Shown piece after piece: positions 41,466 to 45,087 of a stretch of DNA of 50,460 nucleotides. The notes beneath the pieces are model-generated. The model ran no database searches. It was not told where the DNA came from and worked only from the letters and a program-made list of their open reading frames with translations. Source of the stretch: a virus; IMG/VR virus record IMGVR_UViG_3300009008_000058, positions 1-50,460 of that record; one strand, 5' to 3'. The translations under genes and the position numbers were made by a program. The first letter of the stretch is position 1. Each line of letters starts with the position of its first letter.

Positions 41466-42194
41466 ATGTTGCCAGTAGGAATAGACACATTAAAATCCAC
41501 CATTGGTAGACGAGGTGGTGTGGCTAGATCAAATAGATTTGCCATTTATATTACACACCCAAATAAAAAGCAAGGCCTTTTAAATACTGATTGGTCTGGC
41601 CTTGCATCCAATTTACTTACGACGGCAATACAACCAGGGCCAGGGAAGATAGATCCTATGGTGTTCTTTAATGACCCTAGGGATATGTTCCTATTATGTG
41701 ATTCTGTTCAACTACCAGGTCGAAGAATAGCGACAATGGAAAGACGTACCACACATAAAGCAATTAAGAAACCATATTCTTATCTTGTAGATGAAGTAAC
41801 ATTTACTTTTACTTTAACCAATGATTATTATATTAAGAAATATTTTGATTCTTGGCAAGATATGATTGTGTCTGGCTCCGATAAAGGCATTGCCTATAAG
41901 GATACATACACAACAGATATTGTTATTCAACAAATGGGATCAGGTAATGATTTTATACCAGCATATGGTGTTAAATTAATTAATGCATTCCCTATCTCTG
42001 TTGGTACAATAGATTTATCTAACCAGTCTGAAAATGATGTGGTGAAGGTAACAATAACAGTCGGGTTTGATGACTGGAAAGATGAAAGCTTATTAGATTC
42101 TGCAATGTCAGTAATCGATCAAGGTAAAAAGCTTTTAACTGGTACAGGAGCCCAATTCGATTCAATTTATAATAGCATGAAAGGATTTTTTTAA
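41466..42194 (+). CDS. 54: Baseplate tail-tube initiator gp54-like
   Basis: This 242-residue protein (T4 gp54: 320) has the tail-tube fold seen in gp19 and gp54: VARSNRFAIYI, LLCDSVQLPGRRIATMERRT, EVTFTFTLTNDYYIKKYFDS, YGVKLINAFPISVGTIDLS and VKVTITVGFDDWKDESLL. It could be a tube paralogue, but its place beside gp26 and gp29 favours the initiator that sits on gp48 and receives the first tube ring. A GGAAG ribosome site precedes the ATG. Confidence 0.75.
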   Translation: MLPVGIDTLKSTIGRRGGVARSNRFAIYITHPNKKQGLLNTDWSGLASNLLTTAIQPGPGKIDPMVFFNDPRDMFLLCDSVQLPGRRIATMERRTTHKAIKKPYSYLVDEVTFTFTLTNDYYIKKYFDSWQDMIVSGSDKGIAYKDTYTTDIVIQQMGSGNDFIPAYGVKLINAFPISVGTIDLSNQSENDVVKVTITVGFDDWKDESLLDSAMSVIDQGKKLLTGTGAQFDSIYNSMKGFF

Positions 42195-42197
42195 AAT

Positions 42198-42902
42198 ATG
42201 AATATATTACCAACAATTGAAGTGCCAGAGTATTCATTAGTTGTACCCTCATCTAATAAGAATATTAAATATAGACCATACTTGGTCAAAGAAGAAAAGA
42301 TACTACTAATAGCATTAGAGTCTAAAGATGAAACGCAGATAGAAAATGCTATTAATAATATAGTATTGAGTTGCACACAGAATATTACATTGGATGATTT
42401 AACTGTATTTGATCTTGAATATATCTTTGTTAAGATAAGAGCAATATCAGTGGGAGAAACAGCAGAATTAGGTTATAAATGTGGCGCGGAAGGGTGTGAT
42501 ATTGTAACAAATGTTAAAGTAAATTTTAATGATATTAAAGTGGTCGGTCTTGAAGATAATAATATGAGACATGACTTAGGTGATGGACTTATCATTGATT
42601 TAAAATATCCATCAATTGCTGATAAAGAAATATTTAAAGACATTGATGATGATGATATTATTATTACATCTGTGGCTAATTCAATTGATACCATTTATTA
42701 TGGGGATGAAATATACAATACAAAAACAATTGAATTGAGTGAAGTGATTGAGTTCTTAGGTAACTTAAATACTACTCAATTCAATCCATTGTTGGCAGGT
42801 GTACTTACAATGCCACATATCAATTATGATATTAAATGGGTGTGTAAATGTGGTGAAGAAAATCAAATAAGTTATAATTCATTATCTGATTTTTTTATAT
42901 AG
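42198..42902 (+). CDS. 26: Baseplate hub assembly protein gp26 (T4_baseplate family)
   Basis: This 234-residue protein (T4 gp26: 208) has the family lines SLVVPSSNKNIKYRPYLVKE, EKILLIALESKDETQIENAI and LDDLTVFDLEYIFVKIRAIS. Two cysteine pairs (YKCGAEGCDIV and WVCKCGEEN) could bind zinc. gp26 acts in hub assembly and is not in the virion in T4. The last codons are GAT TTT TTT ATA TAG; a slippery T-TTT-TTT at 42890-42896 allows entry into a 59-residue downstream frame. The next gene is the tape measure, the classic position of tail-assembly chaperones. Confidence 0.85.
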   Translation: MNILPTIEVPEYSLVVPSSNKNIKYRPYLVKEEKILLIALESKDETQIENAINNIVLSCTQNITLDDLTVFDLEYIFVKIRAISVGETAELGYKCGAEGCDIVTNVKVNFNDIKVVGLEDNNMRHDLGDGLIIDLKYPSIADKEIFKDIDDDDIIITSVANSIDTIYYGDEIYNTKTIELSEVIEFLGNLNTTQFNPLLAGVLTMPHINYDIKWVCKCGEENQISYNSLSDFFI

Positions 42903-43075
42903 CTCTTTCCAATAACTCCCTTGAAAATGTATACCGAGGGAATTTTATTATTGCGGAGGAGCATAACTTTACATTGAGTGAATTAGATAATATGATCCCT
43001 TGGGAAAGGGAAATATATGTAGCATTAATTGACAATAAAATTAAAGAAGAAACAAAACGATTAACTGAAGGTTAA
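42896..43075 (+). CDS. Candidate -1 frameshift extension of gp26 (tail chaperone T-domain-like)
   Basis: In the -1 frame an open stretch of 59 codons begins at the slippery site and ends at TAA 43073-43075, two bases before the tape measure ATG. It reads YIALSNNSLENVYRGNF, IIAEEHNFTLSELDNMIPWE, then REIYVALIDNKIKEETKRLT and EG. The MIPWEREIYVAL line is a coherent helical motif. Without frameshifting the only ATG would give 26 residues, with no ribosome site at the right distance; a GGAGGAG lies farther upstream (near a TTG). The fused product would be 292 residues. The frame is seen; the frameshift is inferred. Confidence 0.6.
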   Translation, partial: YIALSNNSLENVYRGNFIIAEEHNFTLSELDNMIPWEREIYVALIDNKIKEETKRLTEG

Positions 43076-43077
43076 CT

Positions 43078-45087
43078 ATGGGAAAGACATCAATAGGCGG
43101 AAAAGGTATTAAGGCGGGTCAAAGAACAACCCGAGCTACAGCAGAAGTAAGTGAGGATGGATCCTCATTAAGTTCTACGGGATTCGATAGAGTTCAGTTT
43201 GGTCCTGCCTCAGGTGCAGGTGCCTTGGAAGGAGCAATACAACAAGGTAATGAACAACAGTTAAATGCCTTAGGTGATGTATCGAATAGACTAGACTCAG
43301 TTAACGGTGCCCTCTCTGATCTTAATTCCAATATGGAAACTCTAAAGAAACTAGAGACAGCCACATTACTATTTGAATTTGCTAAGTTTGGTGACTTCGG
43401 TAAAACCTTTGATACCATGGATAATAAATTTGAATCTATGGGTAAAACATTTGATAAAATGGATGATGTTGCAGAAAGAAATAAAGATTCAATTGATGCT
43501 AACTTCGATGAGTTAATTGCCCGTACTGATGCAGGTTCTAGAAGTATTGTTAAAGCAATAACTCGTATGCACGGTATGTTATCTGGTGACAGTGAAGCAC
43601 AATTAAAGACACGAATGACTAATACCTCGGCGTCACAAAATGAGCAATTAATGAGAGCTCGTAATGTTAGAGATGCTCAGCGCAAAGTATATGCAAAACA
43701 TGGTATATACAAAGTCACTGGTGAATCACCAAACGACGCCAGAGAAGATTTTGCTAAAGAAACTCGTAATGCTTCTAATAAGTCTAAGGCTCGAGAAGGG
43801 TTAAGAATTAAAGCTGGCCAGACCCATTGGGAAGTTAATCAAGTTTTAAGTAAAACTCAAGGCTGGGCGGCAAGAAACAATAGAGAAGATGTATTAAATA
43901 AAGTCCAAAAAGAACGAAAAAAATTAAAAGCCAGAAATAAAGACTTTCATCAACTACAAATATTTGACCATGGTGATTTAGCTTCTGTTAAAAATAGTTA
44001 CACGGGCCCTGATGGAAAGCGAATAACAACAAAAGGCAGCCGCGTAGTTTATAATAGAGACCATAATAGAAAGTTTTTTGGTGGCGGTGGCGGTGGCATG
44101 AATTGTTGTGATGATTTAGTATCAATATTAAAAGATATTGAAATAAATACCCACGTTTTTAGAGAAGTTAAAGAAGAATTTAAAGCATCCTTTAAGAAAC
44201 CATCGTCAATGGCATTAAGAGAAAATGCTAACGAGGTAGCCAATAGGAATAGAAACCTTACTATTGCAAGTCAAAATACAGGTTTAAGCTCATCACAGAA
44301 TAAGAATCCACTATTATTAGGTGGACCACAAAGGCAAGAAAAATATGCTGGGTCTAATTGGGATATGATACCTTATGGTGGTGGTGGTAAGAAAAATAAA
44401 ATGCCTAAAGGTAAGCCTGGCTTAATTAAAAGATTTGGTCAAATGCTTGCTAAATATGGTTGGGCATTTGCTGGATATGTTATTAGAATAGCTCCTTGGT
44501 TGGCTCCAATGTTTACCCCTATGGGTGCAGCAATTGCTGTAGGTGCTGCTATATTATTCATTCAATATCAAGATGATATTATTAAACTTATGGATGATTA
44601 TGAAGCAAATCAAAAAGCTATTGAAGCAGCCAATAAAGTTAAATTAGAAAATGAAAAGAAAGGTCTTGTTGCTGTTGTTGATTCTGAAACAGGCACTGCA
44701 TCTAATATGTCTTTAGAGGATGCACAAAACCAACAACTTGAAGATGTAGCCAACGGTCTACCCCCATCAACAATTGACGCTGTTGCAGGCGGCAAGGCCG
44801 ATATATCAAATACTGTGGCCCCTTTAACTACACAATTAATTAAAAATAATGCCAAACGACTTAAGGCGCAAAGGATTGCTGAAGACAAAGCTAAGGCAGA
44901 GGCGGAAGCTAAGGCAGCTGCAGAAAAACAGAACGTAAATCTATATGATAATAGTAATAGTAATAATTCTACAAGTCATATTGTTCATCAATATGGTCAT
45001 TTAATAGATGAAATGGTAAAAGGTGGTATTGATAGTACTCTTAGAACAGATGTACCAACTTCAGGTACATTCACACCTGGTAACTAG
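43078..45087 (+). CDS. 29: Tail tape measure / baseplate hub gp29-like
   Basis: This 669-residue protein (T4 gp29: 590) is the likely tape measure. It has a Ser/Gly-rich N-terminus, long helical regions (about 60-330) with periodic charged residues, a Gly-rich linker before MNCCDD, and a hydrophobic stretch at residues 461-497 (YVIRIAPWLAPMFTPMGAAI, then VGAAILFIQ). The end is an Ala/Lys/Glu helix and an Asn/Ser tail. Position right after the gp26 chaperone, as in siphophages and myophages, supports the call. Tape measures fill the tube and set its length, then help DNA cross the membrane. Confidence 0.75.
   Translation: MGKTSIGGKGIKAGQRTTRATAEVSEDGSSLSSTGFDRVQFGPASGAGALEGAIQQGNEQQLNALGDVSNRLDSVNGALSDLNSNMETLKKLETATLLFEFAKFGDFGKTFDTMDNKFESMGKTFDKMDDVAERNKDSIDANFDELIARTDAGSRSIVKAITRMHGMLSGDSEAQLKTRMTNTSASQNEQLMRARNVRDAQRKVYAKHGIYKVTGESPNDAREDFAKETRNASNKSKAREGLRIKAGQTHWEVNQVLSKTQGWAARNNREDVLNKVQKERKKLKARNKDFHQLQIFDHGDLASVKNSYTGPDGKRITTKGSRVVYNRDHNRKFFGGGGGGMNCCDDLVSILKDIEINTHVFREVKEEFKASFKKPSSMALRENANEVANRNRNLTIASQNTGLSSSQNKNPLLLGGPQRQEKYAGSNWDMIPYGGGGKKNKMPKGKPGLIKRFGQMLAKYGWAFAGYVIRIAPWLAPMFTPMGAAIAVGAAILFIQYQDDIIKLMDDYEANQKAIEAANKVKLENEKKGLVAVVDSETGTASNMSLEDAQNQQLEDVANGLPPSTIDAVAGGKADISNTVAPLTTQLIKNNAKRLKAQRIAEDKAKAEAEAKAAAEKQNVNLYDNSNSNNSTSHIVHQYGHLIDEMVKGGIDSTLRTDVPTSGTFTPGN

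Follow-up and report, generated by a model that had tools for sequence, protein, structure and literature searches.

A probable programmed −1 frameshift in the tail assembly chaperone gene of an uncultured marine T4-like phage

Frameshifting in tail assembly chaperone genes is reportedly conserved in several groups of T4-like phages, and the T4 genes concerned are said to be 26 and 51. The −1 frameshift signal of bacterial dnaX is made up of an upstream SD-like element, a slippery heptamer and a downstream hairpin. The study devoted to the tail assembly chaperones of T4-like phages (Vladimirov, Gautam & Davidson 2022, Virology 566:9–15) is drawn on here through two papers, whose citing passages credit it with poly-T slippery sites in the TAC-N genes of these phages (PMC12846349) and with some T4-like phages that have one short and one longer gene (PMC10885494). 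A 2016 review, in its passage on the subject, gives the G-T frameshift as conserved except in T4 (PMC5009743), and T4 gp26 and gp51 are listed as hub assembly chaperones in the relevant part of PMC3004832. A chaperone frameshift in T4-like phages is already in print, and the main claim made here is therefore known. The evidence for stimulators is possibly the new part; among the open-access matches listed, no report of stimulators in T4-like tail chaperones was found by title or beginning of abstract. The locus described below belongs to an uncultured marine T4-like phage in which a single gene very probably gives rise to two forms of a tail-building helper protein.

The slip site and its two frames

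The window is the whole stretch of DNA analysed, 50,460 nucleotides of the viral record IMGVR_UViG_3300009008_000058. The locus within it has the following features.

42198 to 42902, plus strand: gp26 ORF, the putative short tail assembly chaperone (TAC-N), 234 residues unshifted, matching PF12322 and phrog_150
42890 to 42896, plus strand: slippery heptamer T_TTT_TTT, in phase, of the form T_TTT_TTN found in 176 of 176 distinct −1 junctions
42900 to 42902, plus strand: 0-frame stop TAG, one codon past the slip site, a distance shared by 152 of the 176 junctions
42896 to 43075, plus strand: −1 frame extension, the gp51 C-terminal domain (putative TAC-C), 59 codons and TAA, matching phrog_634
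42902 to 42962, plus strand: predicted RNA hairpin, a candidate frameshift stimulator, minimum free energy −22.9 kcal/mol, z −4.76
43078 to 45087, plus strand: 669-residue ORF, a tape-measure candidate by its position in the gene order

The gp26 ORF ends in GAT TTT TTT ATA TAG (42888–42902), and the run of seven T at 42890–42896 lies in X_XXY_YYZ phase relative to it. The −1 frame has 59 codons (42896–43072) before TAA at 43073–43075, and the next ATG follows two bases on, at 43078. An earlier sequence-only reading had proposed a frameshift here, with the heptamer in the correct phase, 59 open −1 codons ending two bases before the next ORF, and a shifted product of 292 residues. Re-reading of the ORFs bore out all these coordinates, and the predicted length is reproduced by calculation from the sequence (233 + 59 = 292 residues).

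An open stretch of the extension's composition arose by chance in 0.37% of 20,000 shuffles. T_TTT_TTN occurs in phase only three times in the 40 ORFs of the window (15,527 codons), and the gp26 copy alone lies within 10 codons of its stop; among the 50 in-phase XXXYYYZ sites in window ORFs, it is again only the gp26 site that is followed by at least 50 open −1 codons. A second run of seven T (42186–42192) ends the preceding tail-tube-like gene (GGA TTT TTT TAA) out of slip phase, and serves as a local example of a chance run. The same junction recurs in a second IMG/VR contig (L001/L008), possibly a record closely similar to the window.

The gp26 frame matches PF12322 (E = 8.5e-53; 179.7 bits against a cut-off of 24.5), a family not found in 14 control genomes, and phrog_150 (E = 4.6e-56). 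The extension matches phrog_634 (E = 4.6e-20) and the C-terminal part of phrog_150 (E = 4.5e-5), and tblastn places matches to it in 604 phage records at E ≤ 1. As judged from these matches, the −1 frame encodes the C-terminal domain of T4 gp51, an identity that the sequence-only reading missed; its claim that the −1 protein is coherent is upheld by the domain match and by the codon-level constraint described below. A full-length separate gp51 gene is not present at the locus, where the C-terminal domain lies in the −1 frame. The genes upstream of gp26 are, by PHROG match, those of a DNA end protector and of a tail-tube-like protein. This gene order is shared with Pelagibacter phage Mosig and Ochrobactrum phage OC, whose records label the protein that separates gp26 from the end protector as tube initiator or hypothetical. 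NCBIfam gave no match for three proteins.

Conservation of the junction and the question of a separate gene

Loci were gathered by gp26 or extension motifs, to which the window's own record and named phages were added. Because collection was motif-based, the sample favours relatives of the query, and the counts are counts among the matches listed. These held 223 extension matches; leaving out six at contig ends gave 217 loci with both domains adjacent, and the gp51 domain lies in the −1 frame in 214 of the 217 (among the matches listed). The other three (RB49 gp51, Klebsiella F48 gp51 and Campylobacter CPt10) have the domains in the same frame and, while counted in the 217, are left out of the junction counts. 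In Klebsiella F48 the two domains are separate genes. In Campylobacter phage CPt10 they are fused in frame, as one continuous reading frame with no shift (L102:1856–2590). T4 itself (L088) fell short of the E ≤ 1e-3 cut-off in the search for extensions and stands outside the 217.

The 214 loci reduce to 176 distinct junctions, and an in-phase T_TTT_TTN is present in all 176 (among the matches listed), with the 0-frame stop one codon beyond it in 152; conservation of the slippery site was the first comparison that the sequence-only reading had proposed. The heptamer is TTTTTTC in 90, TTTTTTT in 76, TTTTTTA in seven and TTTTTTG in three. Nine named phage genomes are among the 176, ranging from P-SSM2 to phages of Rhizobium, Stenotrophomonas, Vibrio and Xanthomonas, and reading 15 named gp26 ORFs by eye found the site in nine, that is, in nine of the nine with this layout.

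Two explanations that dispense with ribosomal slippage bear on the T run itself. The true gene might be one continuous ORF broken by a homopolymer error in sequencing or assembly, as the seven T and the single frame of CPt10 would allow, but the same −1 layout recurs in 214 of 217 loci, nine named phage genomes included (among the matches listed), and many junctions are not T7 at all (TTTTTTC in 90 and TTTTTTA in seven of 176). Since every one of the 176 distinct −1 junctions has a related heptamer, an assembly error of one base is in practice excluded, and this is the least probable of the alternatives weighed. Transcriptional slippage on the T run could likewise supply the second frame, and the run is seven T long in the window and in 76 of the 176 junctions. 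Against this, in 100 of the 176 the run stops at six T, the next base being C, A or G, and a six-T run is usually too short for polymerase slippage; moreover, the phase T_TTT_TTN is kept in 176 of 176, and the excess of downstream structure and the SD-like element described below act on ribosomes. We regard polymerase slippage as extremely improbable.

The −1 layout also occurs without the heptamer. In Vi01, Menlow and Vibrio YC (Ackermannviridae) and in Vibrio D531, a −1 extension with an MPW motif follows an end of the form NNT TTC NNN TAA (L095:3194–3226, L096:3209–3241, L097:3266–3298 and L103:3179–3211), with no T_TTT_TTN. These four phages, which may slip on one codon only, were missed by the extension model and are outside the 176.

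Clustering at 80% identity, the only phylogenetic correction in the comparisons, gave 144 representatives. A PWER-like motif is found in 141, which were used to survey start codons; 136 of them have the usual spacing and entered an ungapped codon comparison, five with other spacing and the three without the motif being left out. All 176 junctions have TTT as the first Phe codon of the heptamer, against a TTT share of 70% in gp26 bodies, and a T at the end of the preceding codon, while the codon after the first Phe varies (TTC 90, TTT 76, TTA 7, TTG 3). Elsewhere in gp26 of the 144 representatives, F-F or F-L(TTR) pairs give an in-phase TTTTTT in only 21 of 259 cases. Synonymous identity between representatives is 0.78 at codon −1 (0.36 expected) and 1.00 at codon 0 (0.58 expected), with no rise at codon +1 (0.51; 0.57 expected). 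Two frozen slip codons followed by a free wobble base are, as far as codons can tell, what a tandem slip would leave when its last base is unconstrained. The one further column with raised synonymous identity in the 144 representatives is gp26 codon −10 before the slip (0.62; 0.42 expected). Within the −1 frame, differences fall at codon positions 1, 2 and 3 in proportions of 28, 14 and 57% (1,624 pairs of the 136 representatives), and the purifying selection for which the sequence-only reading had asked is visible in this bias.

The same reading had named an independent start and ribosome site for the second frame as evidence that would count against a frameshift. In several records, P-SSM2 and S-SM1 among them, gp51 is annotated as a short gene that starts on its own within the −1 frame, and candidate start codons are not scarce: within the conserved domain, ATG stands at residue 20 of the extension in 98 of the 141 representatives and at residue 33 in 136. 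TTG occupies residue 27 in 51 of them, and it does so in the window too, where this TTG (42974) sits 12 nt after GGAGGAG. At or above the slip, however, an ATG in the −1 frame is found in none of the 141 and any start codon in two, and the first 12 residues are free of start codons in 57. An SD sequence precedes the TTG at residue 27 in 0 of 51, the ATG at residue 20 in 0 of 98, that at residue 33 in 4 of 136 and that at residue 4, the commonest start among the first 12 residues, in 0 of 35. A separate start would also cut the domain, because the −1 protein is conserved upstream of the codons at residues 20, 27 and 33 (L9 in 95%, N16 in 96% and F17 in 100%). The GGAGGAG of the window is the 3′ strand of the predicted hairpin and reads GGAAGAG in L009 and L011, and a separate gene leaves the frozen T_TTT codons unexplained. 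On this evidence a separate gp51 gene is very unlikely.

Four phages (Rhizobium RHph_I9, Mendera, Vibrio D486 and EniLVp02) have a 0-frame stop that shares bases with an extension-frame ATG, as TGATG or TAATG (L092:3190–3200, L093:3225–3235, L094:3333–3343 and L100:2500–2510). Re-initiation at this overlap could give the C-terminal domain alone in these phages. In three cyanophage records the gp51 region carries no gene (L235:1204–1389, L236:1204–1373 and L237:1204–1383), and a 'joined' flag is absent from all gp26 rows in the records examined.

A separate gene, transcriptional slippage and sequencing error were rejected on the start codons and SD sites, the six-T junctions and the named genomes, respectively. 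The reading that we hold to be very likely, on sequence evidence, is that gp26 and the −1 frame are two parts of one tail assembly chaperone gene expressed by programmed −1 frameshifting. Most ribosomes would stop at TAG, releasing a TAC-N of 234 residues; a minority would slip back one base on T_TTT_TTT, with the hairpin 5 nt downstream as an aid, and continue to a 292-residue TAC-NC whose end is the gp51 domain. If lambda gpG/gpGT is a guide, TAC-N in many copies and TAC-NC in few would coat the tape measure, recruit the tube protein and then leave. We infer the slippage itself, its efficiency and the chaperone role; what was computed is the sequence, its conservation, the frozen codons, the predicted RNA fold and the homology to T4 gp26 and gp51.

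Candidate stimulators in the RNA

The predicted hairpin of the window begins 5 nt past the heptamer, and none of 200 shuffles was as stable. The close relatives L009 (z −5.12) and L011 (z −5.37) have a similar outer stem, L014 does not form this stem (z 0.05) and L015 folds otherwise (z −4.15). Covariation in the window hairpin was not above that of shuffles, with only three distinct sequences to compare. Across the 144 representatives there is an excess of RNA structure just downstream of the slip: relative to synonymous recoding, 60-nt segments starting from the slip have mean z values of −1.60, −1.99 and −1.65, against −0.11 to −0.54 upstream and −0.55, −0.27, −0.88 and −0.01 further downstream. 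A consensus structure for 136 representatives showed no common fold, and the stems therefore differ by lineage.

A second element lies upstream. SD-like tetramers occur 9–21 nt before the slip in 92 of the 144 representatives, where pooled codon usage predicts 57.0 (sd 5.2), and at four control offsets they occur in one to four representatives. The pairing energy to the 16S end, tested with codon usage by GC class, averages −6.49 against −4.92 under recoding, a shift not seen at five control offsets. GGAGG stands 10 nt before the heptamer in 43 of the 144. No SD-like element was found upstream of the window's own heptamer, and in 31 of the 144 representatives both a strong SD and a fold excess are lacking. 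The data do not support a trade-off in strength between SD and hairpin (Spearman 0.14, p 0.09). T_TTT_TTC tends to go with stronger stimulators than T_TTT_TTT (strong SD in 64% of 77 against 41% of 58), in a comparison that ignores relatedness.

We lean towards the view that the chaperone frameshift of T4-like phages is under a three-part, dnaX-like signal, made up of an SD-like element roughly 10 nt before the slip, the T_TTT_TTN heptamer and, a few nucleotides past it, a hairpin specific to the lineage, kept by selection at synonymous sites across the cyanophage and pelagiphage-like group. Different lineages would rely on different parts of this signal, the window on its hairpin without an SD.

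A possible chaperone fold, T4 gp26 and gp51, and known systems

The structure model of gp26 has a pLDDT of 88.9. The HK97 tail assembly chaperone 2ob9 fills the first two Foldseek rows at non-significant E-values (0.93 and 1.2). VIA-align ranks 3fgx first (Z 8.2), then 2ob9 (Z 7.4, within the range possible for a common arrangement; rmsd 4.6 over 84 aligned residues) and YqbN 3klu (Z 7.2), with the next row at 4.7, and all three matches fall on gp26 residues 1–94. 3fgx and 3klu are presumably prophage tail chaperones. The nearest solved folds of the modelled N-terminal domain would thus include the HK97 tail chaperone, with weak scores.

The ORF at 43078–45087 is a tape-measure candidate by position only: the 669-residue protein has no Pfam match and one weak match to a phrog of unknown function. 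A complete downstream ORF of at least 350 residues is present in 86 of the 144 representatives, in 24 of which it starts more than 150 nt away. When 23 of the downstream proteins, that of the window and 22 from the 86, were made into a profile, T4 gp29 did not match it; it is a poor profile because the window protein matches only itself, L001 (the same sequence) and L012 by phmmer. Tape-measure phrogs were found in two of the six named relatives scanned, L099 (3.8e-8) and L091 (0.0085).

T4 itself was compared with a profile of 138 fused products (296 positions, the slip lying between 234 and 235). T4 gp26 aligns to positions 10–236 and T4 gp51 to 23–281, with E-values that hold for the small set of 10 proteins searched, and T4 gp25 and gp27 do not match. 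T4 gp51 matches the extension HMM at E = 1.8e-6 among these 10 proteins, having failed the wider search at E ≤ 1e-3, and T4 gp26 and gp51 are 20% identical over 161 residues (E = 3e-6 as a two-protein comparison). By alignment, T4 gp26 is the short product and gp51 the long one, and T4 therefore has two genes where its relatives shift. The sequence-only reading had suggested that a frameshift here would tie T4 gp26 to the G/GT-type chaperone system; that gp26 and gp51 match the two products supports the tie. The link to the lambda G/GT-type chaperones is, by the accounts of the citing papers, not new (Vladimirov et al. 2022).

By all the sequence criteria applied, the programmed −1 frameshift signal appears real, and it is of a kind already reported. 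Among the T4-like marine phages of this independent sample the chaperone frameshift is the norm, and it accounts for the stretch without a gene in three cyanophage records and for the separate gp51 in others. Specific synonymous positions are now defined for reporter work.

In its layout the signal resembles that of dnaX, with a heptamer, a predicted hairpin downstream and, in many relatives, an SD-like element some 10 nt before the heptamer; it differs in its T-rich heptamer and, in the window itself, in having no SD-like element. Among the T4 proteins, gp26 is homologous to the unshifted part and gp51 to the whole shifted product, but T4 uses two separate, divergently oriented genes where there is one gene and a shift here. 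The lambda heptamer differs from T_TTT_TTT. The locus has in common with lambda gpG/gpGT, as treated in the 2016 review, a predicted −1 slip close to where the first frame ends, a C-terminal domain drawn from the second frame and a place before a large putative tail gene (PMC5009743). The T4-like phages of Vladimirov et al. (2022), as cited, have a short and a long chaperone and a poly-T frameshift signal; the window phage differs in being a further uncultured lineage, and the hairpin and the SD-like element are what was found here.
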